Shown here in pieces: positions 2,741-21,563 of a DNA stretch of 26,927 nt. The notes under the pieces were generated by a model. That model did not search any database and was not told the DNA's origin. It saw nothing but the letters and a program-made list of their open reading frames with translations. Position 1 is the first letter of the stretch; each line of letters begins with the position of its first letter. A program made the position numbers and the translations under genes. Origin of the DNA: a virus; IMG/VR virus record IMGVR_UViG_3300009420_002775, positions 1 through 26,927 of that record. The stretch is one strand, 5' to 3'.

Positions 2741-5700
2741 TTAAGATAGAGTTGTTGACTCTATAACTGTTCTTTTTGTTATATCATCGCTATCTAGATA
2801 AACTCTAACATTTGCACCAGATTTAACTGCTGCGATAAGTTCATCTAATTTAGCTGTATTATCACCATTGTTACTATCTCCTCCTGTTCCTGCTATACCT
2901 TGAATTAGTGAAGTTATAGCTCCTGTTGCAGCAATGGCTGGTGCCGCTAGAGCAGTTGTACTAATGAGGTCTTTTACCTCCTCTAGTTTATCGGTTTCTA
3001 ATGACTTTAAAGCTTCTGATAGTTTTGCTACTCCTTCGGCCATTATTTTAACTCCATTACCGGCGTTCATTAAACCTGTACCCATCAATGCTATAGCTCC
3101 AAGCATTGCAATTGCCGGTAAGGAAGAAAATATAGATGCTGTTAATATTGCTAATCCAAATGCTACTGAGGCTAGTGCTGGTCCCATGATTAATAGTGCA
3201 GCTATTTTCTTAAAGGTGATTGCCCCAAGCATCATTACAAAGCCTGTTGCTACTGCATTTATAACACTTGGTAACATTTCTAATGCTTTCATTAATACGT
3301 CACCAATTACTCTTGCCAATCCGGTTATTATTGTACCTATAGCATATATAGCCGGTGATGCCATGAGTAGTGCTGCTCCTAAAGTAAGTATTACAGGTAT
3401 AGCTGGGTATAGTGTCATTAATCCAGCAGAGAATGCTGCCATTCCTGCTCCGCCTGCTGCTCCTGCTGCAGCTGCTGTTGCTGAGGCTACATTGGCTGTT
3501 TGTTGTGCTCCTATTCCAAGCCAAGTTGCTGCCGTTCTTGCTACTATTGCAGCTCTTTCTGCTATGAATTGCCCTATTCTAGTCTTACTTAAAAGTAAGT
3601 ATATTCTATCTACTGCTATTTTTGCTTTTGTTGCTAAAGTAGAAGCCGTAGTTGCAATTCTATTACGCATTGAGGCAGTAGTAAGTAAATTGTAAGTCCC
3701 AATTGCAAGTTTTCTTAACTTATCACCAGCAGCAGTTACTAGGTTGTTTATTTTAGCAAAAATAGTACTACTCTTTATTGTGTTAGTTAATTTTTTAATG
3801 TTAGAAGATAAAAATTGAGTAGTACCAGCGTATGCTTTTTGAAGGGCAGTACTAACTTGTGTAAGTTTATTGCTTAATACAGTTTGTATATTTTTAATTC
3901 TCTCTACTCCTATCAATCCAAGCATTTTTGCTTTCAAAAACTTAAAAGCTTTACCTATATTTTCAAGACTCTTTTTATATGCGTTTTGGATTACTACCCC
4001 TGCTTTTGTTGCTAAAGTATGAGCTTTTAATGCTATAGTTTGACCTATAGTAAGCTTAGAAGTAATAATCATACTTTTATTTAACTTACCTGCTGCTTGA
4101 GCTTTTTGTATTGCGTTTAGACGAGCAGAAGTCTTAACAAGTTCTGCCATAGACTTACCTGAAGTAACTAATCCGCCTATAAAGCTTGCAAATTTAAATC
4201 CAAAGACGGCTGCAGTTAAAGCTTTTAAAGTAAACATTATAGGTTCAAGCCTTAATAATGCAGCTAAACCTTGAGCTAAATAGCCTACAAAACCAGCTAT
4301 TGGTGCTATTATAGAACCAAGCATATCTACTATAGGTACTAATGCTTCTAATATAGGAGCAAATGACTGAGCTAATTTACCCATTAGTAACTGTATCTTT
4401 TCTTGGACAGCCATTCTTTCCATGTCTTCTTTCTTAACTCCGGCTGCAAGAGCTGCCTGTTCAGAAGTCATATTATTTTCTAACCCTCTTTGGTATGCTA
4501 TTTTACCTAATTGATCTCTAGTTAATCCAAGTGCTTTTGCTTGGGCTTCTTGTTGGATTCGGTTCATTTTACCGAACTGTGCAATTGAAGCAGAGTTTTT
4601 AAATATTTCTTTTCCTACTCCTGCTAGATCATTATTTAAAGCAAGCTCTCTTGCTTTTCCTAAATTCATCTGTCTACCTGTAAGTAACTGGGCTTCTAAT
4701 TCTGCTTCTATGGATGATTCAAAATCTAATAGACTACTAGCTACACTATCTAATTCAGACAATGACATTCCTAGTCTTCTAGCTGCTGATGCTGCTAATC
4801 CAAGCTGTTTTGGCATTCCAGAAAATGAAGCTTTTATACCGTCTGATGTAGTTGCTACATCTCTAAGTATTTGTCCTTGTGATACAGCGGATCTATTAGA
4901 TCTATTGAAAGCAGATGTAGTATCTACTATACTATCAGTAACACCGTCTATGTCACCAGAAGTAGTTTGTGCGATCATTGCTAGGCCTCCTGCTTCGTTA
5001 GCAGCAAGTCCCATTGTGTTTTGTAATTCGGCGGCACCTTGTAGAACATCATTAGATAAGATATTCTGAGCATTCATACCAGTTTGCTTGGTAAGTTCTG
5101 CTATAGTTTCTAAGTATTGCTGTGTGGTAGCTAATCTACTATTTAATCCTTCAGTAAATACAGCATTTTGCCCAGTAAGGTGTACTGATTCAGTAGCTGC
5201 TTTATTAACATCTAAAAATCCAGAGACTATAGACCCGACCAGTACAGCAGGATCCGCTAGTCCCTTTGCAAATCCTTTTAAAAGTATACTAAAACCTTCT
5301 GCGGCAATTTCAAGCTTAGTAAATTTTCTTACATTAAGTGCGGTGTCTTTCGACATCTCTCTCATTGTCGCGGCGGACCTTCTCATAGCGTCGTGGAAAA
5401 TACCAGAACGCATTCCAAGTCTTTCCATTAATGCACCTGTACCTTCAACTAAAGCACCAGTTACCCCGCTTAATCTACTTATTTCGTCTTCTGTATCTAA
5501 TCTTGCATTAGCTTGTTTTAATATTTTTTTGGTAACTTTTCCTTCATCAAAGTAAAGACCAAGTAATTCTCTTTCTTGGTCAGTGAGATCAGTAGCATTT
5601 TTGAGCATTTCTCCAATAAGCTCATTTATAGTATCTGTTTTGGCTCCCATCTCGATAAAGCCAGCTATCTGATCTTGTATTTCTCCTACTATACTATGGT

Positions 5701-6127
5701 TTTCTCCTAACCTTTGAGCTTCTTGATTTAATATCTCAGAATTAACTTTTATTTTCTCCTGCAGAGCTTCTACTTCTGATCTGGTTAGATCTACAATAGA
5801 TTGTTCGTCAAATTTTAATTTTTGGGTAGCATCTAATAATTGACTAAAACCTTTGTTAACCCCTTTAACAGCAATATTATTTTTAGCACTAATGTCTAAA
5901 AACTCAGAAGCTATACCTCTTAATTGAGAATAAAGGCCAGTAGCAGAACCTGCCATACTTTCTAACTCTGTCCTAGCTGTTCGTATATCTGAAGGTAGAG
6001 ACTTGAATTGCTTCATAGCCTGTTCATCGGTCAGTTCAATAGGTTGTTTATTGAGTTGTGTTCTCAACCTATTGAGCTCCTGCAGCAATACTTTAGCTTC
6101 CTTTAAATCTTCATTTTCTTTTGCCAC
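2741..6127 (-). CDS. Tail tape measure protein
   Basis: 1128 aa, the longest complete gene here, placed as expected after sheath, tube and tail-assembly genes. The tape measure sets tail length and is held inside the tube until DNA ejection. Residues 1-290 are helical with coiled-coil-like heptads. Residues 290-560 form a conserved-looking block with a DFESSIEAELEAQLLTG core near 468-485. Strongly hydrophobic segments lie at about 600-655 and 885-1020 (Ala/Gly/Ile-rich), which is typical of tape measures that interact with the host membrane. The C-terminus is hydrophilic. The start is GTG (6127-6125); MAKENEDLKE follows, and there is no Shine-Dalgarno sequence. The start is 36 nt past the stop of the small chaperone-like ORF, with a hairpin and a TATTTATA box in the gap. 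Using the usual rule of about 0.15 nm per residue, the tail would be about 170 nm long (inference). Confidence 0.9.
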   Translation of the reverse strand: MAKENEDLKEAKVLLQELNRLRTQLNKQPIELTDEQAMKQFKSLPSDIRTARTELESMAGSATGLYSQLRGIASEFLDISAKNNIAVKGVNKGFSQLLDATQKLKFDEQSIVDLTRSEVEALQEKIKVNSEILNQEAQRLGENHSIVGEIQDQIAGFIEMGAKTDTINELIGEMLKNATDLTDQERELLGLYFDEGKVTKKILKQANARLDTEDEISRLSGVTGALVEGTGALMERLGMRSGIFHDAMRRSAATMREMSKDTALNVRKFTKLEIAAEGFSILLKGFAKGLADPAVLVGSIVSGFLDVNKAATESVHLTGQNAVFTEGLNSRLATTQQYLETIAELTKQTGMNAQNILSNDVLQGAAELQNTMGLAANEAGGLAMIAQTTSGDIDGVTDSIVDTTSAFNRSNRSAVSQGQILRDVATTSDGIKASFSGMPKQLGLAASAARRLGMSLSELDSVASSLLDFESSIEAELEAQLLTGRQMNLGKARELALNNDLAGVGKEIFKNSASIAQFGKMNRIQQEAQAKALGLTRDQLGKIAYQRGLENNMTSEQAALAAGVKKEDMERMAVQEKIQLLMGKLAQSFAPILEALVPIVDMLGSIIAPIAGFVGYLAQGLAALLRLEPIMFTLKALTAAVFGFKFASFIGGLVTSGKSMAELVKTSARLNAIQKAQAAGKLNKSMIITSKLTIGQTIALKAHTLATKAGVVIQNAYKKSLENIGKAFKFLKAKMLGLIGVERIKNIQTVLSNKLTQVSTALQKAYAGTTQFLSSNIKKLTNTIKSSTIFAKINNLVTAAGDKLRKLAIGTYNLLTTASMRNRIATTASTLATKAKIAVDRIYLLLSKTRIGQFIAERAAIVARTAATWLGIGAQQTANVASATAAAAGAAGGAGMAAFSAGLMTLYPAIPVILTLGAALLMASPAIYAIGTIITGLARVIGDVLMKALEMLPSVINAVATGFVMMLGAITFKKIAALLIMGPALASVAFGLAILTASIFSSLPAIAMLGAIALMGTGLMNAGNGVKIMAEGVAKLSEALKSLETDKLEEVKDLISTTALAAPAIAATGAITSLIQGIAGTGGDSNNGDNTAKLDELIAAVKSGANVRVYLDSDDITKRTVIESTTLS

Positions 6128-6152: not shown

Positions 6153-6179
6153 AAAGGCCTCTATTATTTAGAAGCCTTT
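6153..6179 (-). other. 11-bp hairpin around the stop codon between chaperone ORF and tape measure
   Basis: On the coding strand AAAGGCTTCTA and TAGAGGCCTTT pair over 11 positions with one G-U pair, closing a 5-nt loop that contains most of the TAA stop of the upstream ORF. No run of U follows directly (CCTATTTATA), so it is not a clean terminator. It could be an mRNA processing or stability element, or it could limit read-through into the tape measure gene. Confidence 0.5.
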
Positions 6180-6418
6180 GCTGTATAAGATGGTTGTTTT
6201 ATTGCAGGTCCCATTGGAGTAGAAGAACCTCCTTTTCCCTTGTTTGCCTTTTTCATCTCTTCTGCTTCTTTTTCGAAGAATTCATTTATCTTTTGAAAGG
6301 TAAAATTACGAAGCCAGATCGGCATATTATATATAGTATTAAAATCATATCCACCTTTACCGTGGAATACTATTTCATGTATTTGCGTGAATAAACTCGC
6401 CCTATAGGTTGGCGTCAG
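6164..6418 (-). CDS. Small tail-assembly partner ORF (G/GT-like), probably made by +1 frameshift
   Basis: An open frame of about 84 codons that overlaps the end of the gp26-like gene in the +1 frame and ends at TAA 6166-6164. It encodes YRASLFTQIHEIVFHGKGG, a YNMPIWLRNFTF core, then a charged helix and a lysine-rich tail. In T4-like marine phages I recall a similar short protein between the gp26-like gene and the tape measure. Here the frame has no ATG, GTG or TTG upstream of that conserved N-terminus: it opens just after a TAG (before codon GGA at about 6436), and the first near-start codon is CTG at 6418. The first ATG lies inside the core (MPIW). Two explanations fit: a CTG start, or a +1 slip from the gp26 frame at TTT-C, where tRNA-Phe can re-pair from UUU to UUC. 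The second would give an extended product similar in logic to lambda gpG/gpGT. The coordinates given assume CTG. Confidence 0.7.
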   Translation of the reverse strand: MTPTYRASLFTQIHEIVFHGKGGYDFNTIYNMPIWLRNFTFQKINEFFEKEAEEMKKANKGKGGSSTPMGPAIKQPSYTAKASK

Positions 6419-7136
6419 GCCAAAGAAAGGTAATCCCTATCGGTATGTCGACGCCCTCCTCCGCACCGTCTGGGTAGAATTTTAAGTCTACGTCAGGCTG
6501 TATTTCATTAACAAATTTTCTAAACGCTCTTGAATCTCTTGCTAAAAAATTATTATCTACATAAGGACGTACTGCTTTTTCGTCTCCATTGACTGATAAA
6601 AGCATATACTTAAGCCTGGTAGATAGCTCTGCTGATGATTCTTTGTTCATTTTCTTTAAACCTTCAATTTCTCTCTGTACTGCTAGCTCATCACCGTGAG
6701 TAAGGAGTTTAAATGTAAGTGTGTCATTAGTAGAAGGTGTAAGAAAAGTAAATTCATTTTTACCATCCTTAATACTACTTTCATCTATTGGTTTATTTTG
6801 TACTGCTGAAAGATCAACGTTAACTTTTTCACCGAGATAAGTAAAATCGTAGTCTTTTCCGTATCCTAAAATACGAGCAGCTACTAAAAGTGCATTTTTA
6901 TCACCAACTAATATGTCATTATATGTAATGTCTTTATTAACTATAAGAGCTTGTAATAATTTGTCAATAACTGTACCTTTTTGAATAAAGTTCTGATTAG
7001 TTAAAATATCTTCTTCTTTAGCAGTCATATACTTCATCTCAATAGTTCCAGCCCTAAGGGGTGAATCTTCTGCGTACAATAAGCCTTTTGAAGGTAAATC
7101 TACAATTTCTGTTGGAAATTTATTTGCTTGTTCCAT
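6402..7136 (-). CDS. T4 gp26-type baseplate hub/tail assembly protein (T4_baseplate family)
   Basis: 244 aa. The N-terminus FPTEIVDLPSKGLLY, the block YMTAKEEDILTNQNFI at about residues 36-51, the LLVAARILGYGKDY stretch near 84-97 and a C-terminus ending in a WPDA motif match the T4 gp26/gp51-like baseplate family as I know it from T4-like phages. These proteins help assemble the baseplate hub and tape measure and are probably chaperone-like. It lies between the SGNH-like gene (77-nt gap) and the small overlapping ORF that leads into the tape measure, which is the standard place for tail-assembly chaperones. The ATG at 7136 is preceded by an AT-rich leader with no Shine-Dalgarno sequence. The reading frame ends at TAG 6404-6402; near its 3' end, ACC TTT CTT TGG offers a +1 slip site into the downstream frame. 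Confidence 0.85.
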   Translation of the reverse strand: MEQANKFPTEIVDLPSKGLLYAEDSPLRAGTIEMKYMTAKEEDILTNQNFIQKGTVIDKLLQALIVNKDITYNDILVGDKNALLVAARILGYGKDYDFTYLGEKVNVDLSAVQNKPIDESSIKDGKNEFTFLTPSTNDTLTFKLLTHGDELAVQREIEGLKKMNKESSAELSTRLKYMLLSVNGDEKAVRPYVDNNFLARDSRAFRKFVNEIQPDVDLKFYPDGAEEGVDIPIGITFLWPDANL

Positions 7137-8160: not shown

Positions 8161-8646
8161 TTAGTAGTTAAGGACGCAATAATCCATTGCTACTGTAATT
8201 CCTAGTTCAGCGACATCAGATGTAGCCCAATCGAAAGAACCTTGTTCCATTGAAGTAATGAAAGCTCCTTTGATTATCCATTCAGATACTATATCTCCTA
8301 CTGGGCCTAATACGTTAAGTACTAAATCTTTTTTGTAGAAATCTGAGTATCCTGCTCTTCCTGTTACTGATTCGTATGATAAACGAGCCCATTCCATTAC
8401 TGCTTGTGCTCCAGAAGGTGTAATCGGATCATATAAAGTCATGTCCATGTTACCCCATTCTCTTTTACCACGAATTTTTCGGTATGTGTTAATATGATCG
8501 AGTTTGACTTCTTCGTCCTCGAAGTTAGGAGCTGTTACGTTTTTAATCATAAAGGACGGAATGTTGTCGATATACATTACGAATCTATTCTGTACTTTAG
8601 GCTCGAAAGCTCTAAACATTATCTCATTTGGATCTAATACTGCCAT
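8161..8646 (-). CDS. Tail tube protein (T4 gp19-like)
   Basis: 161 aa, close to the usual 160-165 aa of T4-type tube proteins. It starts MAVLDPNEIMFRAFEPKVQ, followed by NRFVMYIDNIPSFMIKN, the standard N-terminal strand pattern of this family. TPSGAQAVMEW and a C-terminal block GAFITSMEQGSFDW also fit. Hexameric rings of this protein form the inner tube through which the DNA passes. The gene follows the sheath gene by 35 nt, the conserved sheath-tube order, and is closed by a strong terminator. The ATG is preceded by TATTTATAATAAAG on the coding strand and no Shine-Dalgarno sequence. Confidence 0.93.
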   Translation of the reverse strand: MAVLDPNEIMFRAFEPKVQNRFVMYIDNIPSFMIKNVTAPNFEDEEVKLDHINTYRKIRGKREWGNMDMTLYDPITPSGAQAVMEWARLSYESVTGRAGYSDFYKKDLVLNVLGPVGDIVSEWIIKGAFITSMEQGSFDWATSDVAELGITVAMDYCVLNY

Positions 8647-10749: not shown

Positions 10750-10916
10750 ATTATCTTTGATTTATTTTTTAAGGCTTCTACTAGGTTTGGGAATAATTCT
10801 TTCCAGTCTTCTCTTCTTACCTTGTCTACTTCTTGTGTTGTGTTAATAAATTCATTTATAAGATTACTATCTTCTGTATTGTAGAAATTACTTTTTAATC
10901 TCTTAAAAAAGCTATC
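10746..10916 (-). pseudogene. Frame-shifted C-terminal part of the radical SAM gene at 10912-11997
   Basis: A 56-codon open frame that begins directly after an in-frame TAA and has no ATG, GTG or TTG before its conserved part. It encodes DSFFKRLKSN..., then VDKVRREDWKELFPNL. The pattern DK-x-R-x-x-x-[FW]-x-x-x-[FY]P is also found at the C-termini of the neighbouring radical SAM proteins (for example DKLRKVDFFNIFPEF at 11990-13252 and DKHRKESFTNVYPHF at 15542-16855). Joined to the upstream frame it gives about 416 aa, the same size as its siblings. The two frames meet within CTAAGATAGC (about 10911-10920) and need a +1 shift. A one-base insertion or assembly error explains this best, since no good slippery codon is present; recoding cannot be excluded. 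Confidence 0.75.
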
Positions 10917-11997
10917 TTAGTACTCCCTCTATATTGTCTAGTTTTTTCTTTCTAACTTCTAAAGGTATTACCTTGACATTATGATAGTCTGGGTAATTTA
11001 CATAATTATCTCTTATAGTACTTATTACTCCTGTACCGTCTTTATAATATAGGCCTTTTTCTTCTAAGTACAAATGAAGTTGCTCTATATATAAAAAATT
11101 AAATACATGTATCGTCTGGATAATAGCATAAGTAAAGTTATATTTATCGGTATATTTTTTTATATTACCAATTACGGTTTCAAATCGACTTAAGCTTCTT
11201 ATGTAATCGTTTCTTTTAAAAGTATCATCTAAACTAAAGTTTAAGTTAACTTCTTTAAAGTGGTGTAATTTATCTAATATTGGTACTATTCTTTCAAACT
11301 TATAATTTCCATTCGTAATATAGGTAATGTATATATCTTTTGCTAAATCTCTTTCTATCAGCAAATCTAATAAGTATGAATGTTTATCAACTAAAAATGG
11401 TTCTCCACCACTAATATGTAACTCATCTAATTTAAAACCATTTTCTAATAAATCTAAATATACTTTCGGATCTTCTACCCAATCGTAGTCAACTCCTTCT
11501 TTTTTTAAGTTATCATACCCGCTAGGCAGGTTAATTTTATCTTTAAGTTTATAATAATCATCTACCCAAGATGTTGAAGATTCAGCATTACAGCTTCTAC
11601 ATTTTAAGTTACAGAAATTACCTAGTCTGAGTTCTAAATAAGTAATATCTGGTTTTATAGTGCCGTCTTCTGATGTTATATCATTTAATGTTTTTTCATC
11701 TATAATTTTTTCTTTATTTCTTTTAGAAAAACCTCCTGCTTTTTCTATATTATGACAAGTAAGGCACGCTTCAGGTACTTCCCCATCTAACATATCCCTT
11801 CTAATCTTTCTAAAAGATTCTGAATTAACTATTTTATTAACTCCGTCATTAATATGTACTGGTCCGCTTTCTTGGTCGTTAAAGTTTTGAGAAAGTGCGT
11901 ATTTACTATCCCAGTTCGCTTCACAACATACAGACGACCAACCATGAGGCATTACACTTAAATGTTTCCACGGAAGACTACATATAAACTTACTCAT
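10912..11997 (-). CDS. Twitch-domain radical SAM protein A (C-terminus frameshifted)
   Basis: 361 aa as read. The N-terminal twitch-type cysteines are C6 (FICSLPW), C24/C25 and C78-x2-C81. These probably bind an auxiliary iron-sulfur cluster. The radical SAM motif C129-x3-C133-x2-C136 (NFCNLKCRSC) binds the catalytic 4Fe-4S cluster, and SGGEP at 196-200 contacts SAM. Enzymes of this type generate a 5'-deoxyadenosyl radical and often modify peptides or sugars; the substrate is unknown. It is 60-100 residues shorter than most siblings because a frameshift near 10912-10920 separates the last 56 codons. The start ATG overlaps the previous stop by 8 nt (ATGAGTAA). Last of seven paralogues in the array. 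Confidence 0.85.
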   Translation of the reverse strand: MSKFICSLPWKHLSVMPHGWSSVCCEANWDSKYALSQNFNDQESGPVHINDGVNKIVNSESFRKIRRDMLDGEVPEACLTCHNIEKAGGFSKRNKEKIIDEKTLNDITSEDGTIKPDITYLELRLGNFCNLKCRSCNAESSTSWVDDYYKLKDKINLPSGYDNLKKEGVDYDWVEDPKVYLDLLENGFKLDELHISGGEPFLVDKHSYLLDLLIERDLAKDIYITYITNGNYKFERIVPILDKLHHFKEVNLNFSLDDTFKRNDYIRSLSRFETVIGNIKKYTDKYNFTYAIIQTIHVFNFLYIEQLHLYLEEKGLYYKDGTGVISTIRDNYVNYPDYHNVKVIPLEVRKKKLDNIEGVLR

Positions 11998-13252
11998 AGT
12001 AGTGTTTATTTTTTAAATCAGCAAATTCAGGAAAAATATTAAAAAAGTCTACTTTTCTTAGCTTATCTAAATTTGCTTGAATTATACTGTACGTTTCTTC
12101 TTTATGATTATCAACTTTTGATTCTAACCCTTCTTTAATATACACTACTACCTTTTCAAAAGCTAGTATATCCATGGTTTTAAGGTTGTCTGGTGCATCT
12201 AAAGTTTTTATCCATTCTATATGCTTATTATACTTGTTGACTAGAGCACCTAAGTGCCCTTTAGGTAATTTGTAAAGAGCATATTGAGGAGGATTATGTA
12301 AAATATTAGCATGAATTTTACCAACAGTTATATACTTCTTTTCGATAAATTCTCTATGTAAATCAACTACATTGTAAGAATTCATCCAGCTTATAGTTGG
12401 GGCTATATTAAAATTTAAATGGGGAACCTCTTTCTGTAGTCTTTCAATATTAGCTTCTACATTATCCCACTTAATATTAGTACGAAGATATTCTCCTCTA
12501 GAATGAGAACCGTCTAGACTAGCTTGTACACATATTTCTTTAAATTGCTGCCATAGAGGCACCACATCCCATTTACCGTAAGTTAATTTAGCCATATTTG
12601 TGCTATACAGTAAGGCGATTTTCTTAGCTCTACCTTTATCTATAATCTTATTTAGTAGTTTATAGTGTTCTGGTAGCATTAGTGGTTCTCCCCCTGCAAA
12701 ATATATTTGCTCAATGTTATCTATTTGATCATATATTTGAGTAAGTAGATTATCTGTATTCTCTATCGATTTTAACTTAGGTTCTGAGGGGAGTGAATGT
12801 CCTAATTGTACTGAGTCACCATACCATGCAGTTGACCATCCGCTGCTACAAGTTACACATTTAAGGTTACATTTATTAGAAAAACGTATATCAATATACC
12901 TCAGTTTTAGATCCGGTATAAAGAAATTATTAGCATTAGTAGCTTTTACTACTTCATCATAAGCATACGAACGGTTAAAGTGGTACCTTAGTGACCCTAA
13001 TCCCTTATCTTCTAATTCCCAGCAATGATTGCAAGCTTTAACTCTTACTCCGTTATGCAGATCTTTACGCAGTTGTACAGCAGCAGGAGAGTTCATATGA
13101 TCAAGTAAATTATCATCGCCAGAGTATGTGGATAGCCTGCTTTCATAATTAAAAATACAACATGGCATAAACTCACCCTGCATTCCTATGTAGGAAGCAA
13201 CATAGGGAGCAGAGCAAAAAGTACTGTTTGTACTGTTTAAATCTTTTTTCAT
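11990..13252 (-). CDS. Twitch-domain radical SAM protein B
   Basis: 420 aa. Twitch cysteines C13 (TFCSAPY), C31/C32 (PCC) and C74-x2-C77 (CNHCWELED) are followed by the radical SAM cluster motif C128-x3-C132-x2-C135 (NKCNLKCVTC), a W-rich STAW stretch, and AGGEP at 186-190. The C-terminus carries the family's DKLRKVDFFNIFPEF end. It most resembles protein E (same AGGEPLM, SNK/LCN and STAW/SSKW features), so the two look like closer paralogues. Its ATG is joined to the stop of protein C by TAATG, which implies coupled translation. No transmembrane or signal segment, so it should act in the host cytoplasm. Substrate unknown. Confidence 0.9.
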   Translation of the reverse strand: MKKDLNSTNSTFCSAPYVASYIGMQGEFMPCCIFNYESRLSTYSGDDNLLDHMNSPAAVQLRKDLHNGVRVKACNHCWELEDKGLGSLRYHFNRSYAYDEVVKATNANNFFIPDLKLRYIDIRFSNKCNLKCVTCSSGWSTAWYGDSVQLGHSLPSEPKLKSIENTDNLLTQIYDQIDNIEQIYFAGGEPLMLPEHYKLLNKIIDKGRAKKIALLYSTNMAKLTYGKWDVVPLWQQFKEICVQASLDGSHSRGEYLRTNIKWDNVEANIERLQKEVPHLNFNIAPTISWMNSYNVVDLHREFIEKKYITVGKIHANILHNPPQYALYKLPKGHLGALVNKYNKHIEWIKTLDAPDNLKTMDILAFEKVVVYIKEGLESKVDNHKEETYSIIQANLDKLRKVDFFNIFPEFADLKNKHYYE

Positions 13253-14274
13253 TAAATTAATTTTGTTTCTAAATCTAAATTTGAAACAACGTTACTATAC
13301 TTGTTTAATTTGCGAACCTCATTTAAAAATTGAGAATGTTCGGGATGATCTCGGTCAAAAACATTTACTTCTTTAAATTCTTGTTCAGTATATGTTCCCC
13401 AATTAGAAATTCTATAAAATAATACCGTATGTTCTTTATGTCCTTTAAAAATACTATTCATAAGTATAGTAAATTTTTCAACTTCTTTATAGTTATCTCT
13501 TTGTACTACAAATGATGTGGTAATCCTTTTAACTGTCTCAATAGTATTAAGGAAGTGAAGGTTATCAATTAAAGTGCTCCATTTTCCACCTCTTCTTATC
13601 ACTTCATATGTTTCTTTACATGCCCCATCAATACTAATTTCGCATTGATCTATAAACTGGTGTACTTTGCTAAGTTTATCCCAAATTTTAGGAGTCCAAA
13701 GTATCCCGTTAGTATGTATTATAATTCTCTTTAGATTAGGGTACTTTTCTACTGGAAAGTCAATTAGGTAATCTCTCATAGCTTTACTATAAAAAGGGTC
13801 ACCTGTACCACTGGTAAAGAATTCTTCAAGTTCATCTCCAAAGCCTTCTTCAATTCTTTTCAGTTGACTCAAGGTCATAGCTGTGTTAAGATCTGTGTTA
13901 GGTATAATATTATCTCTACACGTTGGGCATCTTAAGTTACATGTTCGATCTATGCAAATTTTGACACGTTTAGGTTTGTTATAATTATCAGCATTGAATT
14001 CCTCAATAGGTCTTATAGGTCCAGTAACCTCTCCTTTGTTTACCAGCATATTAAGGTGAGGACAAAATTCCTTACTGCATGACGAAAAAGAGCCGTCTAA
14101 CATCGACTCTCTAACTTCTTCTGCTTCTTCACTAAACCAGTTTTTAAGGTAGTCTGGTGATTTTTTCAGATTAGTATCATTCCAGTATGGGCAACATAGC
14201 GTTTGCCGATCCTTATGAATTTCGGTGTATGTAAAAGGTAGGTCGCAAAAATAATTTTTAAGGTCTACTTTCAT
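13252..14274 (-). CDS. Divergent short radical SAM protein C
   Basis: 340 aa, the shortest intact member. N-terminal cysteines C10, C27/C28 and a C66-x4-C71 pair replace the C-x2-C seen in the other six. The radical SAM motif is C112-x3-C116-x2-C119 (RTCNLRCPTC). The SAM-binding GGEP is replaced by TSGTGDP at 154-160, and IHTNG at 186-190 follows as the next core strand. It lacks the long C-terminal DK-R-F-P tail of the others, ending LDLETKLI. The TSGTGDP form is seen in some SPASM/twitch enzymes. The differences suggest a separate reaction step from its neighbours. The gene is coupled to D by an ATGA overlap and to B by TAATG. Confidence 0.88.
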   Translation of the reverse strand: MKVDLKNYFCDLPFTYTEIHKDRQTLCCPYWNDTNLKKSPDYLKNWFSEEAEEVRESMLDGSFSSCSKEFCPHLNMLVNKGEVTGPIRPIEEFNADNYNKPKRVKICIDRTCNLRCPTCRDNIIPNTDLNTAMTLSQLKRIEEGFGDELEEFFTSGTGDPFYSKAMRDYLIDFPVEKYPNLKRIIIHTNGILWTPKIWDKLSKVHQFIDQCEISIDGACKETYEVIRRGGKWSTLIDNLHFLNTIETVKRITTSFVVQRDNYKEVEKFTILMNSIFKGHKEHTVLFYRISNWGTYTEQEFKEVNVFDRDHPEHSQFLNEVRKLNKYSNVVSNLDLETKLI

Positions 14275-15530
14275 ATACTTTTTAATTTAAAGTGGTTATA
14301 AATAAAGGGATCTAATTCTAAAAAATTCTGGTTTCTTTTTTCATCTAATATATCTGTAAATTTAACAAAGTCTCTAATACTGTTTTCTTCTGAGTCTATC
14401 TTTATTAAGGTAATTAAAGATTTAAGTTTGTTTATAAGCCACTTTTTTCTAGAGCCAGGTATATTAGTGTAACTTACTTTTAAAAACTCAACCTTGTCGT
14501 TTATCATAGACACTACTTTTACTTTTAATGCTTCAGGTATGTTCTTAATATTTAAGTACTGGGGGTTAGTAACTGGGTGTAGTACAGGGGTAAAGTTTCT
14601 ATCAAGAAAAAAATCTATAGCATCTAGCATATGAATTAAATTGTATATCTGAACTGTAAAGTTAGCATATACGTTAATATTTTTATTGTGTTTAATAAAT
14701 TCCTCTAGTATGTTAATTTTTTTATTAATAACTGACCATCTCATAGGGTACCTAACATACTCATAAGTATCTTCTATACCGTCTATAGAAAAATCTATAT
14801 TAACATTTTTGAAAGTAGTAAATTTATTAAGTAACTCTAAATTAATTTTAGTAAGGTTTGTATTAATTCTAAGATCTAGATTAGGAGCATGTTTTGATTC
14901 TATAAAAAAATCTATAAGTTCATAAAAAGACTTATTAATTAATGGTTCACCCCCTGAGAATCTAATTATTTCTATGTCTTTTACGTTTTCCTTAATATGG
15001 GTACAGTATTGATCCATATTAACATTAATAGGTTCGTCTAACGTAGGAAAAAGATTAATTAGTGAATTACTGGTTAACGTAGAAGTTATTTCTTTATATT
15101 CATTATTAATTAAATCCGAATCTTGAGGAGAGCACATTCTACATTTTAAATTACATAAATTACCCACTCTATACTCAACAGAAATAGGGGAAGAATCTAA
15201 TATACCATTATTTTTAAGAGCGTTTTGTACCCTATCTATAAATTCTTTATTTCCTTTATATGTATCTACTAGATCTGTTCTTAGGGATGCTCCTCCATCT
15301 TTTTCTGCTTCATAACATACATCACATCCTTTTACATACTCACCTTTTATACTTTTGACTCTATCTTCTGCTAATTCTTTACTATTCCAAAAACTTTCTA
15401 ACGGCTGGTCTACTGTTATGCCTTCTACTTTACCATTATTCCTTTCAGGAACATGTAAACAACATGCTTTGTAGACTCCGTAAGAGTCATTCATTACATG
15501 GTTAAAAAAGTTAGGGCAGAAAGAATTCAT
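14271..15530 (-). CDS. Twitch-domain radical SAM protein D
   Basis: 419 aa. The twitch cysteines are C5 (SFCPNFF), C23/C24 and C69-x2-C72 (CDVCYEAEKDGG). The catalytic cluster motif is C126-x3-C130-x2-C133 (NLCNLKCRMC), with SGGEP at 192-196 and LRINTNLT as the next core strand. It ends in the family tail DEKRNQNFLELDPF. Codon use is very AT-rich like the neighbours, with many ATA and TTA codons. The gene starts 11 nt after the stop of E, one of the few non-overlapping junctions in the array, with AAGGAT just before the ATG as a possible weak ribosome site. Substrate not deducible. Confidence 0.9.
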   Translation of the reverse strand: MNSFCPNFFNHVMNDSYGVYKACCLHVPERNNGKVEGITVDQPLESFWNSKELAEDRVKSIKGEYVKGCDVCYEAEKDGGASLRTDLVDTYKGNKEFIDRVQNALKNNGILDSSPISVEYRVGNLCNLKCRMCSPQDSDLINNEYKEITSTLTSNSLINLFPTLDEPINVNMDQYCTHIKENVKDIEIIRFSGGEPLINKSFYELIDFFIESKHAPNLDLRINTNLTKINLELLNKFTTFKNVNIDFSIDGIEDTYEYVRYPMRWSVINKKINILEEFIKHNKNINVYANFTVQIYNLIHMLDAIDFFLDRNFTPVLHPVTNPQYLNIKNIPEALKVKVVSMINDKVEFLKVSYTNIPGSRKKWLINKLKSLITLIKIDSEENSIRDFVKFTDILDEKRNQNFLELDPFIYNHFKLKSI

Positions 15531-15541
15531 AATCCTTAAAC

Positions 15542-16855
15542 TTAAATGGTTGTCTCTACAGGGTGTTTATCAGGAATACTTTCAAACCAGTCTTTAAAAT
15601 GTGGGTATACATTAGTAAATGATTCCTTTCTATGTTTATCTACTAAAGAAACAATATGTTTCATTTCTTTGTTTTCTGTTGATTTATCTACCTCTCCTTT
15701 TTCAAGCTCAAAATACTTAATAATTATATCGTATTTATGTTTCATTTGTTTTTTATAAAACTCCGGTACTTTTCTAAGGTGGTTGTATAGGTTATCTTTT
15801 GCTTTAATTTTTAAATCGGTAGGAAGAGTGTCCAGAGCATAGTACCTTGGAAATGTTAAAACATTATTAAGGTGAACACCGTGCCATTGAACTCCTAATT
15901 CTATCATTCTATCTACAAAATCTGGTATTTCAAATATGTTTAATATACTTACTGTACAACTTAAATCAAAGTGAAATCCTTTATCTAAGACTGTCCTTAC
16001 ATTGTCTTCTATCTGTTTCCAATTAGTACCTGATCTAGAATACTCTGCTACTTCTTCTTTTGCATCTAATGAAGCAAATATTCTTACATTAAGAGGGTCA
16101 TGTTTAGTAAAGTGGCTCCATAATTCTAACACATCCCATTTTTTGAACTTTAAAACACTGAAATTAGTATTGTACCTTATACGAGTATCTGTGTTACCTA
16201 TTTCTATTAGTTTTTCTAGTATCATATAATGCTCCTCCATCATTAATGGTTCTCCTCCTGCAAAATATATCTCCTCTACCTCTTCTATAAACTCATGAAC
16301 ATATTCATGTATGTTCTTTTTACTCCAATCGTTAACATGAATAAGTGCTCTATCGTTATCACTTTGTCCAAATATATCAACTTCATCTTTATACCATTTA
16401 GAACTTAAAGATGACCCACACATTCTACACTTAAAATTACATAAGTTAGAAAAACGGAAATCCCAGTATCTTAATTTGAATTCATTGCTATGCCCGTCTT
16501 CTTCTGTTGTCTTTACAAAATTGTCAATATGTTTATCCATCAACCTATTAGAGGCGATTCTCATACTTTCATCACCATTATCTTCTTGCATATAACATTT
16601 AGCGCAATGTTCGTGACGTTCTCCATCTAGTTTATCTTTCCTTAGCTGTTTCATCCTATCTACATTCCACAGTTCCTCTAAAGTATTATTTTTTACATGA
16701 CCGATTGGCTTTCTGTAGTCAGTTAAACAGCATGGGTACACTCTTCCATCTGGCCAGTGGTGTAAATGAGACCAAGGTAAAGCACAAAATGTCTTACTAA
16801 CTTTATCTCCAGGATTTTCTCCTGCTTTATATCTTTTATGATTTCTATGTTCCAT
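15542..16855 (-). CDS. Twitch-domain radical SAM protein E
   Basis: 437 aa with the clearest family pattern: C24 (TFCALPWSHLHHWPDG), C42/C43 (PCC), C84-x2-C87 (CAKCYMQEDNG), the radical SAM motif C139-x3-C143-x2-C146 (NLCNFKCRMC), and AGGEP at 199-203. The CALPW-H...PDG...PCC opening is the hallmark I associate with the twitch-domain radical SAM family common in phages and marine bacteria. The C-terminal tail DKHRKESFTNVYPHF matches B. The region between the cluster motif and AGGEP is longer than in B and rich in acidic and aromatic residues. Coupled to F by TAATG. Confidence 0.92.
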   Translation of the reverse strand: MEHRNHKRYKAGENPGDKVSKTFCALPWSHLHHWPDGRVYPCCLTDYRKPIGHVKNNTLEELWNVDRMKQLRKDKLDGERHEHCAKCYMQEDNGDESMRIASNRLMDKHIDNFVKTTEEDGHSNEFKLRYWDFRFSNLCNFKCRMCGSSLSSKWYKDEVDIFGQSDNDRALIHVNDWSKKNIHEYVHEFIEEVEEIYFAGGEPLMMEEHYMILEKLIEIGNTDTRIRYNTNFSVLKFKKWDVLELWSHFTKHDPLNVRIFASLDAKEEVAEYSRSGTNWKQIEDNVRTVLDKGFHFDLSCTVSILNIFEIPDFVDRMIELGVQWHGVHLNNVLTFPRYYALDTLPTDLKIKAKDNLYNHLRKVPEFYKKQMKHKYDIIIKYFELEKGEVDKSTENKEMKHIVSLVDKHRKESFTNVYPHFKDWFESIPDKHPVETTI

Positions 16856-18192
16856 TATAATGTATTGTACCAGTTAAGCATATCACTAGTAAAGTGAGTT
16901 TCAATAGGCATTTTTCTACGTACTGAGTATTGTTGAGTAAAATTCTTAAAGTCTCCTGTTTTCTTATCTAAAGCATCAGTATCTTCTGATGATATTGTAA
17001 CATTTTTTAAATATTTAGTTAAACGAGTGATTTGATTTAATTCCCAAGGTCGAAGTATATCTTTAACTTTATCTAAAGTACTTTCTATTCTATCAGCTAA
17101 AACATTTTTATTTGCTTGATCTATAATATTAACACTTTGAAAAGAAGGAAATCTTAAAATATTTAAAGACATATAAAATTGATCTGGCCTAGTAGATTTT
17201 CGCCATTCAACTATTTTTTCTATAAATTCTGCTACACCCCATACACTAAGTGCAGAAATGGTCATCATTATATTAACAGTCGTAACTGAATCTTCTTTAT
17301 TTAGTGCAAACATATTTTTTTCCCATATATCCCATTCAAATCCATCCCTAACGAAATCCTGTAGAGGACCGCAACATTCAGCTGATGTATATATTTCAAA
17401 CTTTTTAAACTTTTTACTTGCTGCAACTAACTTTAATAGCCTATCATCTTCCATGATTAGGTTACTGTTAACAGCAAAATCAAACTTTTCGTTTTGACAG
17501 GTTTCTAACAAATGCCAAAATGAAGGGCTTCTTGATGGTTCCCCACCTGAAACTCTTAGTTCATCTAATCCATCTTTTATTTCAGGAAACCAATCAAAGA
17601 ACCGTTTAACATAAATATTACCTTCATTCTTATTTCCGAAAGGCATTGCTAAAGAACCATCCTGTCTATAGGTCTTTCCGCCAAAAGTTTCCATATTTTC
17701 ATAAGGACCTTTAGTAGTAATGTCTTTCGCCCAAGTAGAACTAAATTCTGAATTGCAGTAAGAACATGCAAGGTTACATAAATTATCAAAGCAGATCTCT
17801 ACTGTTTTAGGATTAACATTCTTATCCCAAGGTATATCCTTGAGAGCAGCAATTTCTTCATCTGTATATCTAGCAGTCTGGTAAACTCTATCGCTGTAGA
17901 CTCCTTCTTTATTTCCACCAGATGCATCTTCAGCAGTCCAGCAGTAAGAACATTCAGGTGGTCTCTCTCCTTCTAACATCATCTTACGTTGTTTCTTTTT
18001 AAACTCCGTATTATGTAGTGCTGATGGTGTTTTAGCCAACTCTTTATCAGGTATCTTATGTGCTAAAGGGTGATGACAGGATGCTGTTCTACCGTTACCT
18101 AGCCATATAGATACATTATACCACTTTGCTGCACAAAACGATGCTGAGGTATTTTTCATCGCTTTTAAAGCGTTCTCGTATGATGTTTTCAT
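16855..18192 (-). CDS. Twitch-domain radical SAM protein F, CHHP subtype
   Basis: 445 aa. The twitch cysteines are C20, C39 and C81-x2-C84, with CHHP at 39-42 where the other subtype has CC. The radical SAM motif is C139-x3-C143-x2-C146 (NLCNLACSYC) and SGGEP is at 215-219. NPK-VEICF before the cluster and the tail YSVRRKMPIETHF are shared in outline with protein G. The N-terminal cysteines fall at exactly the same residue numbers in F and G (20, 39, 81, 84), so the two are a recent pair within the array. It is coupled by ATGA to the LamG-like gene, which separates it from G. Four twitch cysteines would fully ligate one auxiliary cluster (inference). Confidence 0.9.
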   Translation of the reverse strand: MKTSYENALKAMKNTSASFCAAKWYNVSIWLGNGRTASCHHPLAHKIPDKELAKTPSALHNTEFKKKQRKMMLEGERPPECSYCWTAEDASGGNKEGVYSDRVYQTARYTDEEIAALKDIPWDKNVNPKTVEICFDNLCNLACSYCNSEFSSTWAKDITTKGPYENMETFGGKTYRQDGSLAMPFGNKNEGNIYVKRFFDWFPEIKDGLDELRVSGGEPSRSPSFWHLLETCQNEKFDFAVNSNLIMEDDRLLKLVAASKKFKKFEIYTSAECCGPLQDFVRDGFEWDIWEKNMFALNKEDSVTTVNIMMTISALSVWGVAEFIEKIVEWRKSTRPDQFYMSLNILRFPSFQSVNIIDQANKNVLADRIESTLDKVKDILRPWELNQITRLTKYLKNVTISSEDTDALDKKTGDFKNFTQQYSVRRKMPIETHFTSDMLNWYNTL

Positions 18193-18776
18193 GCTATTTG
18201 GTATAAAAAATTTAAATTACCTGTTATATCAACAGACTTACCGTGTATAATATTTTTAAAGTTATGATGACAGGCTATACCATTAGTATCGTATATTTTA
18301 AAATTATGAACTATAATATCTATATCTTCTGATTCTTTCTGTGTAATGTGAGTATTTACTCCTAAAAATATAACAGGATTATCCGCAACTGCTAAAGGTT
18401 TATCTTTAAGGTTAAATTCAAACTCTTTGTTATTATAAATAGATATTAACAATTTATCTTTAGGAAAGTGTTCGTAAGTAATATTAAAAATTTTACCTGG
18501 GGATATGTCATAGTTCGTCTCAACCCTATCGTTCATATCATCATACCCTAACCCCACTACTAATTTGTTTTCTAATATAGATAAGCTGGTACATTTAGGT
18601 ACAAAGCAAAATACATCTTTCATAGAAGAAAAATTATTAGTTGTATTTTCGAAATCTACTTCAATCTTCCAATATTTATCTCCTTGTACTTTTTGGAGTA
18701 TAGGGTCTTTTGAAAAAGATGGACATATGCTATCAGGCCATAACATCCATGGGAATCTTCTACTTATATTTATCAT
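18189..18776 (-). CDS. Free-standing LamG/concanavalin-like domain protein
   Basis: 195 aa, beta-strand rich, no catalytic motif or signal peptide. It has the sequence rhythm of a LamG-type jelly roll: KYWKIEVDFE, a central NITYEHF strand, VIFLGVN, then IDIIVHNFKIYD, and an ending DITGNLNFLY like the DLSGNGN tail of LamG modules. The same order (YIYLGV, GDIDTFATYND, DLKGNNN) occurs inside the GT7-like enzyme at 21560-22984, which supports the assignment. It may bind a glycan or serve as a scaffold or substrate for the flanking radical SAM enzymes F and G. It overlaps G by 17 nt and F by ATGA, so it is embedded in the same operon. Fold assignment is moderate; function is unknown. Confidence 0.65.
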   Translation of the reverse strand: MINISRRFPWMLWPDSICPSFSKDPILQKVQGDKYWKIEVDFENTTNNFSSMKDVFCFVPKCTSLSILENKLVVGLGYDDMNDRVETNYDISPGKIFNITYEHFPKDKLLISIYNNKEFEFNLKDKPLAVADNPVIFLGVNTHITQKESEDIDIIVHNFKIYDTNGIACHHNFKNIIHGKSVDITGNLNFLYQIA

Positions 18777-20145
18777 ACATACCTTTTAATTCTGGAAATG
18801 TTTCTACAAAATTAGTACCTCTACGCTCATCGTATTGAGTCACAAACCTTACAAAATCTTTCCTTTGTTTTTCTACATTGAATGGGGTAAAATCATTTTT
18901 ACCGATAGCATAATCATATGTTCTTTTAATCTTCTGTATTTCTACATCATTAAAACCGTACTTTATTTTAGTCATTCCATTTCTACCGTAGTATAGTGCT
19001 TTTGTTGCTGCTTCTAAAATATACTCTTTATGATTATCCTCAAGTATTTTTATATTAAGATGTGGTGGCCAACGTGTATAAGAAGTATCCAATTGAAGAG
19101 CTGTATTCCAGTACCTATCTTTGTTCCAAAATTTCTTTTTGAAAGTAAGCACCTTGTCAATTAACTCTGAATAGGTAAATACAGAAAGTGCATTAAAAGC
19201 AGCCATAATATTTACAGTGACCTTAGGAAGCTCAGTAAGTATATTTTGTACATTTATCCAAAACTCATCGTACTTAAGTCCAAATCTTACATATTCAGCT
19301 TGTCCTCCAGTTGCTTCAACTGAGGTAAATATTATAAGTTCTTTTACCTTATTATTATTTACTAAATCTTTACAAATAATAATCATTCTATCCATTAGTT
19401 TTTTAGGTACAGCTAAATTAGTATTAATAGCTAGTGAAAGGTTAGGATTTTGTTCCCAATTCTCTTGTATATACTCTAACACCTTAAAAGTATCAGGTGA
19501 TAGTAAAGGTTCTCCTCCTGTAATTCTAAATGTATGTAGATCTTTATATAAGTCTGGCCACCATTCCCAAAATGCATCTATGTAAGGATTATGTTCTGAT
19601 TTTTTGTAAGGCATCTCATTTCTTGCCTTAATATCTTTTATACTATTAAATCTAGTAGCTGTATCGTATCCTCCATGTTTTTCTATTTCTTCTACCCATT
19701 TAGATGAATATTGTGGTCCACAGTATGCACATGCTAAGTTACAGGTATTAGAAAAAGATACTTCTACATATCTAGGATTATAGTCCTCATTCCATTTAGA
19801 ACTTTTTATTTTTTCCATTTGATCTAAAGACCAAGGTTCAGCGGATTTAAAGGTTCTATCAGAAAAATGCTCTGAGTTATCTTCTACGTTCCAGCAAAAG
19901 TTACATTCTGAAGGTCGTTTTCCTTCAAGCATTTCCTTTCTTCTTTTTTTCTTGTACCTCGTATTATGTAGTGCTGAAGGGTTATTTTCTAACTCTCTTA
20001 GCGGTATCTTGTGCTGTACAGGGTGGTGACATGAATGAGTAAGCCCGGTACCAAGGTGAATGGTTACTTGCGTCCACTTGGCTAAGCAGAAACCACAGCC
20101 TGTGGCGTCAAGCTTTTTCTTAACTATTCCGTAATCAAAATTCAT
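18760..20145 (-). CDS. Twitch-domain radical SAM protein G, CHHP subtype
   Basis: 461 aa, the longest of the seven and the first one transcribed. The twitch cysteines are C20, C39 (in CHHP) and C81-x2-C84 (CNFCWNVED), and a further cysteine is at C17. The radical SAM motif is C135-x3-C139-x2-C142 (NTCNLACAYC), with TGGEP at 209-213. It shares NPSALHNT, a basic KKKRRK stretch and MLEGKRPSEC with F, so they are paralogues of one subtype. The C-terminus YDERRGTNFVETFPEL is the family tail. The 5' end overlaps the GT7-LamG gene by ATGA and the 3' end overlaps the LamG-like gene by 17 nt. Confidence 0.92.
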   Translation of the reverse strand: MNFDYGIVKKKLDATGCGFCLAKWTQVTIHLGTGLTHSCHHPVQHKIPLRELENNPSALHNTRYKKKRRKEMLEGKRPSECNFCWNVEDNSEHFSDRTFKSAEPWSLDQMEKIKSSKWNEDYNPRYVEVSFSNTCNLACAYCGPQYSSKWVEEIEKHGGYDTATRFNSIKDIKARNEMPYKKSEHNPYIDAFWEWWPDLYKDLHTFRITGGEPLLSPDTFKVLEYIQENWEQNPNLSLAINTNLAVPKKLMDRMIIICKDLVNNNKVKELIIFTSVEATGGQAEYVRFGLKYDEFWINVQNILTELPKVTVNIMAAFNALSVFTYSELIDKVLTFKKKFWNKDRYWNTALQLDTSYTRWPPHLNIKILEDNHKEYILEAATKALYYGRNGMTKIKYGFNDVEIQKIKRTYDYAIGKNDFTPFNVEKQRKDFVRFVTQYDERRGTNFVETFPELKGMYDKYK

Positions 20146-21563
20146 AACTTTATATCTAACATTTTAGCCCAAGGAGTTAATATCTTTTCGCCTACAAGCT
20201 CATATTGTAGTTGTTTAATGCCGTCTTCTTTATAGTTTATTCTTTTATCCTGCATTTTAAGAACATACCTTCGTTCATTAGCAGCGGTTGTTTCTCCTTT
20301 AACAAACTTACCGTTTACTATTCCTTCATCATCATGAGGTAAACATCTCATTCTACCTTCTACCCTGTGAGGTAGTATAGAGTTAGGAACTTTAATGTCC
20401 TCTACTTTATGTTCAACATTATAAAGGTTATGTTCTGCTTTTGGGTCATTAAAATTTAAATCAACTGTATGACCTTCTGATGGTAAGTCTTTATGTAAGT
20501 TACGAACTTCTTCTGGAGTTAGTGCTCTATTCCATGCATGTATTTTTGCAATGTCTCCTTGAAAGAATTTAACTGTGCTGTTTTCAGGTTCAGAAGGTGA
20601 AGTTCCTAAGTAATAATCATTAGATCCGTAATTTTTTAGGTTGCCTTTAAATCTCCAAGGGGATAAACTACCTATACCTGCTCTAGAATCTACTTCATTA
20701 CCGTTTAAGTAAAAATGAGAGTGGTGAGTCGATAAATCAATTACAGCAGTAATCCATGACCATTGCTTATCGTACCTCTTTAACCACATGTAGTTATGTC
20801 CGTTAAATGAGTTCCAGTATGTAAGAGATAAGGCTCTAGAATTATTAAAAGAAATACCGTAATCATAACCAGGTATTCTAAATATAGGATACTCTACATA
20901 CTTTCTTGTATTATCACCTATTAAAAATATAGGATTTTTTTCAGGCTGTTGATATGCTCTTACTAATACAGAAATAGTATGTGATCTTGATGTGAGTCCT
21001 CTGAACTCTCTTTGGTAGGGTATTTTACCGTACGAATTACTGCCGTTAAATGATATAAATTTATGTTGAGGTAAATTAGTGTCAAGGTAAGTGTCATTAG
21101 TGAGTCCTTCTAGATGACATCTATAGAATAGATCATCGTCCTCCATACCCCAATCCCAGTAGTCATTAGAATAACCGTTAGTTGCTTCAACATGTTCCTT
21201 AGTAAACAGTACCGCACCGCCGAAGTACTCGTGGTACTTTAACTGGTAGTCCATTTGCTCTATCTTAGTAGCAATATGTCTTGGTCCTTCTGATGGATAA
21301 GAATAATCACATCCTCCATCATCTTCAGGTATCATATCAATATCGTGCCATACAATATAATCACAACCATCCTCAAAGGCATGTTTAGCTCCTATATTCT
21401 TTGTAGCTCCCCTATTAAATAGTTTATCATCTACTTGATGTACTATATAAATTTGAAATTCTATACCATGTTCTTTTAAGTACTTACCTATTTTAGGTAT
21501 GAACTCATTCATATGTAACTCTCTATTTCTATATGGTACGCAAACTCCTAATTTATGACTCAT
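20142..21563 (-). CDS. GT7-like (beta-1,4-galactosyltransferase-type) enzyme with inserted LamG domain, copy 1
   Basis: 473 aa. Residues 1-165 carry the galactosyltransferase-7 signature: VPYRNR (9-14), FNRG (49-52), HDIDMIP with the metal-binding DxD (73-79), FGGAVLF (114-120) and WDWGMEDDDL (136-145). Residues about 168-365 form a LamG-like beta sandwich with the classic LYLG / GDIAKIHAWNRALTPEEV pattern. Residues about 395-473 resume as the C-terminal part of the GT fold: LPH..., N-E-RRY, YKEDGIKQLQYE, like the end of beta-1,4-galactosyltransferases (R...DGL..L.Y). So LamG appears inserted between the WG-EDDD motif and the end of the catalytic domain. No signal peptide, so cytoplasmic. Donor sugar unknown. 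ATGA overlaps on both sides. Confidence 0.85.
   Translation of the reverse strand: MSHKLGVCVPYRNRELHMNEFIPKIGKYLKEHGIEFQIYIVHQVDDKLFNRGATKNIGAKHAFEDGCDYIVWHDIDMIPEDDGGCDYSYPSEGPRHIATKIEQMDYQLKYHEYFGGAVLFTKEHVEATNGYSNDYWDWGMEDDDLFYRCHLEGLTNDTYLDTNLPQHKFISFNGSNSYGKIPYQREFRGLTSRSHTISVLVRAYQQPEKNPIFLIGDNTRKYVEYPIFRIPGYDYGISFNNSRALSLTYWNSFNGHNYMWLKRYDKQWSWITAVIDLSTHHSHFYLNGNEVDSRAGIGSLSPWRFKGNLKNYGSNDYYLGTSPSEPENSTVKFFQGDIAKIHAWNRALTPEEVRNLHKDLPSEGHTVDLNFNDPKAEHNLYNVEHKVEDIKVPNSILPHRVEGRMRCLPHDDEGIVNGKFVKGETTAANERRYVLKMQDKRINYKEDGIKQLQYELVGEKILTPWAKMLDIKL

Follow-up and report, generated by a model that had tools for sequence, protein, structure and literature searches.

A probable programmed +1 frameshift between a gp26-like gene and a start-less open reading frame in T4-related phages

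The window analysed here, a stretch of viral DNA of 26,927 nucleotides in its full length, carries a set of tail genes on its minus strand (Table 1). Two overlapping ORFs, a gp26-like gene (G) and a small ORF (T), are located between the tail tube gene and a tape-measure-sized ORF, with the sheath gene, like the tube gene, upstream of G. The tape-measure-sized ORF was assigned from its position and size, and its protein gave zero matches to Pfam or PHROG. In Flavobacterium phage immuto, the ORF at the same position is annotated as tail tape measure protein, G directly follows the tube gene, and T is annotated solely as a 36-aa fragment.

Table 1. Features of the G/T locus in the window
Feature	Positions	Strand	Details and basis
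Tube gene	8161-8646	-	Followed by one 289-aa ORF, G, T and the tape-measure-sized ORF
gp26-like gene, candidate short chaperone form (G, TAC-N)	6402-7136	-	ATG start, 244 aa
+1-frame stop TAG, 5' limit of the putative shift	6439-6437	-	ORF list and sequence
Small ORF without a start, +1 frame, stop to stop	6164-6436	-	ORF list
TTT-C, candidate slip site (UUU to UUC)	6428-6425	-	TTT at 6428-6426, C at 6425
CTT + T, alternative slip site at the next zero-frame codon	6425-6422	-	Codons of relatives
Conserved 12-mer around the slip site	6417-6428	-	TTTCTTTGGCCT; TTTYTTTGGCCT in the clade; column conservation
T domain, +1 frame	6164-6424	-	Codons after the putative shift TTT GGC CTG ... TAA; aligned relatives, n=53
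Zero-frame stop TAG of the gp26-like gene, 3' limit of the putative shift	6404-6402	-	Shares bases with TAT AGR, the conserved Tyr-Arg codons of T
Presumed tape-measure gene, proposed chaperone client	2741-6127	-	1128 aa, GTG start; position and size

Two other groups of genes on the minus strand of the window were also recorded. A run of radical-SAM genes (10912-20145), with seven or more ORFs matching the radical-SAM model and several carrying SPASM domains, is flanked by the tail sheath gene and by glycosyltransferase-like genes, which is unusual for a tail module. At 20142-22984, two neighbouring proteins each join a Glyco_transf_7 domain (galactosyltransferase type) to a Laminin_G_3 domain (concanavalin A-like lectin).

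From position 6440 downwards the minus strand reads ATAGGGATTACCTTTCTTTGGCCTGACGCCAACCTATAGGGCGAGT, and the gp26-like ORF ends with GGG ATT ACC TTT CTT TGG CCT GAC GCC AAC CTA TAG. The +1 frame at the overlap translates as G L P F F G L T P T Y R and stays open to the TAA at 6166-6164. In this frame the overlap is without any ATG, GTG or TTG, and the first ATG of the small ORF is found at 6325, 34 residues into the conserved part of T. T of the window is thus an ORF without its own start, whose entry point lies near the 3' end of G. The initial annotation had described a gp26-like gene overlapped by a small ORF lacking a start before its conserved N-terminus, with a TTT-C in the short stretch open in both frames, and had suggested a +1 shift there; each of these structural points was borne out, with TTT-C lying between the two TAG stops listed in Table 1.

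To see whether this arrangement is kept, related loci were collected. A search with the small ORF returned at least 596 confirmed relatives, of which 80 were taken for comparison, and a second search, using the gene of Microcystis phage Mel-JY01 as query, supplied 80 more diverged loci. In total, about 166 relatives were grouped into 88 clusters, with T domains less than 90% identical. The second ORF was in the +1 frame at the slip point throughout these relatives. The pattern TTT[CT]T[TA]T(GGC/ACC)CTGA was found at the homologous point in 81/81 loci L002-L082 (the 80 relatives taken plus immuto), and most loci from the Mel-JY01 search carry TTTTTTTGGCCT, with T again in the +1 frame. Three loci from the latter search were scored as -1 when only ORF length was considered; their +1 frame, however, holds FFGL, the homologous start of T. 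Across the about 166 relatives, TTT[C/T]TTT(GG)CCT is near-invariant, while protein identity falls to about 30-50%. The initial annotation had suggested checking in related phages whether the TTTC overlap and the loss of the start codon are conserved; in the relatives collected here the heptamer, the overlap without a start and the +1 placement of T are all kept.

Two findings named in the initial annotation as refuting a shift were also sought. Relatives with an ordinary ATG and no overlap were not encountered in this lineage (more than 160 contigs and Flavobacterium phage immuto), nor was an assembly indel, since those contigs and immuto retain the +1 overlap. A sequencing or assembly error, or a decaying gene, was considered as well; the frame relation is identical in more than 160 contigs and in the isolates immuto and Mel-JY01, the T protein is clearly under constraint among the aligned relatives, and we found no point in favour of either cause. 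We regard this explanation as having a negligible chance of being right.

We also considered that T may be translated alone, by re-initiation or from a non-standard start past the stop of the gp26-like gene. Coupled translation is common among phages, and an upstream TTG, GTG or ATG in the +1 frame is present in 61/88 clusters. These starts are scattered, however, and their positions are not conserved; in the other 27/88 clusters the stretch from the +1 stop to residue 15 of T contains no ATG, GTG or TTG. In 30/88 clusters the +1-frame stop lies at most three codons upstream of the slip. The only near-cognate start in the conserved part of T is CTG, and this Leu codon is CTA, CTT or CTC in other members. 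A separate start would also leave the conservation of the heptamer unexplained. Re-initiation or a non-standard start was therefore rejected as improbable, and a frameshift at the overlap is preferred.

The conservation is concentrated at the slip codons themselves. The first codon was TTT in 84/88 clusters, CTT in 3/88 and TTC in 1/88, and the second was TTT in 66/88, CTT in 21/88 and CTA in 1/88. Where the first codon encodes Phe, it is TTT in 84/85 clusters, compared with 74.5% of Phe codons elsewhere in the same genes (nominal P = 4e-10, which serves as a guide only because the clusters are related). An independent pattern scan that permitted C at the third base found T in 78/79 usable matches. 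Within the window, in-frame TTT[C/T]TTT occurs once in the 19 ORFs counted, at the G/T overlap. Column conservation, scored in 32 window-like and 53 Mel-JY01-like clusters, marks out the TTTCTTTGGCCT/TTTYTTTGGCCT block, and in the 53 aligned relatives of T the conservation of the +1-frame protein starts at FF, that is, at the slip. Taken together, these observations support a programmed +1 frameshift at this locus.

The same frame could in principle be reached by transcriptional slippage or by a -2 ribosomal shift, as the seven-T run present in many relatives would permit. In the window and 21 other clusters, however, a C breaks the run (TTTCTTT), so RNA polymerase slippage and -2 re-pairing should work poorly in the window lineage. 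We judged this route very improbable, slightly more so than separate translation of T, and retained the +1 ribosomal shift.

We then asked which codon slips. Two shift-prone codons in tandem describe the signal best, and by sequence both TTT-C and CTT-T of the window may be able to slip. The most likely event appears to be a slip on TTT-C, with the Phe-tRNA moving from UUU to UUC, and TTT-C is favoured in the window because the third base of the first codon is fixed as T. It also fits L016 and LR756508, where the second codon, CTA, cannot re-pair in the +1 frame. A UUU-Y first codon is held in nearly all members; the exceptions are GXN1 and L322, with TTC, and three CTT clusters. Alternatively, the same shift and product may arise one codon later, on CTT-T, the Leu-tRNA moving from CUU to UUU, to give the junction ITF-L-GLTPT. 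CTT-T is the best known +1 shift pair of bacteria, as in release factor 2, and GXN1 and L322 must slip at the second codon because their first is TTC and their second TTT; lineages with CTT TTT may use it as well. Against this stand the CTA of L016 and LR756508 and the first codon itself, whose third base stays T even though C would be synonymous. A slip at the second codon in the window is hence the less likely choice, though a good deal more plausible than the routes without a +1 shift. The slip at TTT-C proposed in the initial annotation thus stands as to the presence, conservation and likelihood of the site, with the qualification that CTT-T beside it may be the one that slips in the window.

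We searched for elements that might stimulate the shift. No stimulatory RNA structure was found: downstream folding of the window equalled the shuffle mean, and across the clusters it was only mildly low (mean z -0.95). Neither a conserved Shine-Dalgarno sequence nor a conserved RNA structure was detected at the slip site. A short hairpin of the window, UUGGC-CUGAC-GCCAA, is not kept in the Mel-JY01-like set and was discarded, as was a hungry Trp codon as the cause, since some lineages have TAC or TTC in place of TGG. Coding in two frames can explain part of the conservation of GGCCT.

To identify the two proteins, we compared profiles and predicted structures. G of the window matched phrog_150, 'baseplate hub', with E=4e-5, phrog_150 was found in 49/49 members of the G family, and T4 gp26 and gp51 are both members of it. 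By these profile matches, the first gene is a member of the T4 gp26/gp51 family (phrog_150), and the placement of a G/GT pair upstream of the tape measure in the initial annotation gains support from this shared family. G of the window was below threshold for PF12322, the Pfam entry of this chaperone family, and its direct profile comparison with T4 gp26 or gp51 was not significant; the G profile was linked through cyanophage proteins (85%, then 98% to gp26) and matched Thornevirus proteins strongly (99.8%). The structures of G and T were predicted separately, with three rows from annotated phage records left out of the model alignments. The G model (pLDDT 89.8) matched models of the SP-15 hub subunit and of T4-like 'baseplate hub assembly' proteins in BFVD. 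A fold search of PDB with G gave nothing significant, HK97 tail assembly chaperone included, and a sequence search of PDB with the G and T profiles likewise gave nothing significant.

The T domain was predicted to be a small helical protein. Among profiles it came closest to phrog_634 ('baseplate hub assembly catalyst'), the family of the gp51 C-terminus, with an E of 0.0085 that falls short of the threshold. A chain of profiles led from T to a cyanophage 'gp51' ORF (82%) and from that to the T4 gp51 C-terminus (91%); when the profile of T was compared directly with that of the T4 gp51 C-terminus, the result was not significant, and a fold search with T in BFVD gave nothing below 1e-3. In some jumbo phages (I1VX76/I1VX77; Erwinia phage Special G; Ralstonia phage RP12), BFVD matches to the G model and the T model have neighbouring accession numbers, which hints at the same pair there, the T-side matches being weak.

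In long-tailed phages, production of a chaperone pair by a frameshift near the end of a gene is a familiar device, and in lambda the G/GT ratio set by the frameshift controls tail assembly. On comparative evidence we propose, with a probability of about 0.9, that G and T of this marine T4-related phage give rise to a tail-assembly-chaperone pair like lambda G/GT, made by a +1 shift of some ribosomes at the tandem TTT CTT. The majority of ribosomes would read the gp26-like gene through to its TAG and yield the short form. A minority would slip forward one base on TTT CTT, most likely from UUU to UUC at 6428-6425. The shifted ribosomes would read on in the +1 ORF and produce a fusion of ~323 aa that carries the T domain, with the junction ITF-FGLTPT. 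By analogy with lambda, the pair would act as chaperones, many short and few long copies binding the tape-measure protein and the T domain recruiting tube subunits.

The putative pair resembles lambda G/GT in that a short and a frameshift-extended protein would be encoded just upstream of the tape-measure gene. It differs in direction: lambda and other long-tailed phages mostly shift -1, whereas the window would shift +1, the minority direction. Like release factor 2 (CUU-UGA), it would slip forward with a repetitive pyrimidine codon in the P site; release factor 2 has a stop codon in the A site, whereas the window lacks one and has the conserved TTTYTTTGGCCT block instead. In the T4 gp26/gp51 family, to which the short protein of the window belongs through phrog_150, T4 gp51 is the short domain extended at its C-terminus, and the window fusion would be built in this way too. 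Unlike the window, with its single overlapping locus and putative +1 shift, T4 has two separate genes (gp26 short, gp51 short plus extension) and no frameshift, and the similarity between the T4 gp51 C-terminus and T of the window is weak and indirect. Vladimirov, Gautam and Davidson reportedly described T4-like chaperone pairs in 2022, with genes 26 (short) and 51 (long) named in the abstract, so the G/GT reading of the locus is of an already known kind.

A different frame was found in cyanophages, pelagiphage HTVC008M and KVP40. These phages have the same gene pair in the same place before the tape measure, with homologous Phe-Phe codons, but their heptamer, T_TTT_TT[C/T], is of the classic X XXY YYZ form and their T ORF lies in the -1 frame, as seen in 48/48 clusters (cyanophage Bellamy, HTVC008M, KVP40 and relatives). 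In the window and its clade, T was in the +1 frame. In a tree built from the short protein, a long branch with full support has the +1 type grouped on one side. The huge phage LR756511 is the only row scored as -1 within that side, and its placement is unsure because its branch is long. In KVP40 and LR756511 an ATG overlaps the stop of G, and re-initiation may therefore occur in these two phages.

Some annotations of these loci deserve mention. Short ORFs labelled 'gp51 baseplate hub assembly catalyst' in Bellamy (L088, 4187-4369), KVP40 (L091, 4822-4989) and HTVC008M (L092, 16366-16503) look like mis-annotated -1 extensions of gp26, with T_TTT_TTC/T at the gp26 end; those of KVP40 and Bellamy also have an ATG. 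The record 'Streptococcus phage vB_SagM-GXN1' (L085, PQ819873.1) shows the same +1 overlap, its T ORF being unannotated, and has T4-like hub genes close to those of Bacillus phage SP-15.

Chaperone frameshifts of the lambda G/GT type in long-tailed phages were described by Xu, Hendrix and Duda (2004), as reviewed in PMC5009743, and G-T frameshifting is widely conserved, T4 excepted (Atkins et al. 2016, PMC5009743). A +1 tail-chaperone shift is likely in the haloarchaeal virus HSTV-2 (PMC5009743). The training data of PRFect hold 350 forward versus 2368 backward cases, and the SEA-PHAGES data include +1 tail-chaperone shifts (PMC10885494). According to papers that cite Vladimirov, Gautam and Davidson 2022, some T4-like phages have separate short and fused chaperone genes, and TAC genes of T4-like phages can contain poly-T -1 signals (PMC10885494, PMC12846349). 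In the literature searched, which covered these citing papers, we found no description of the +1 direction or of the TTTYTTTGGCCT signal of this clade.

What looks new is therefore a +1 clade (Immutovirus-like, Microcystis-phage-like, Thornevirus) with its own signal, beside -1 relatives (cyanophages, pelagiphages). We further suggest, tentatively and at somewhat less than even odds, that this large clade of T4-related phages, its Immutovirus-like members being marine, departs from its relatives in an ancient chaperone frameshift, shifting +1 at the same two Phe codons at which they shift -1, by way of an undescribed, structure-independent TTTYTTTGGCCT in which GGCCT, beyond its coding in two frames, acts as a stimulator at the RNA level. 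Related lineages that shift -1 and +1 at homologous codons would make the determinants of shift direction directly testable. In hundreds of marine phage genomes, where gene finders lose or truncate T, the finding would also fill in a missing and systematically mis-annotated gene, and it fits a view of T4, long quoted as lacking a G-T frameshift, as a lineage that has both forms as two genes.
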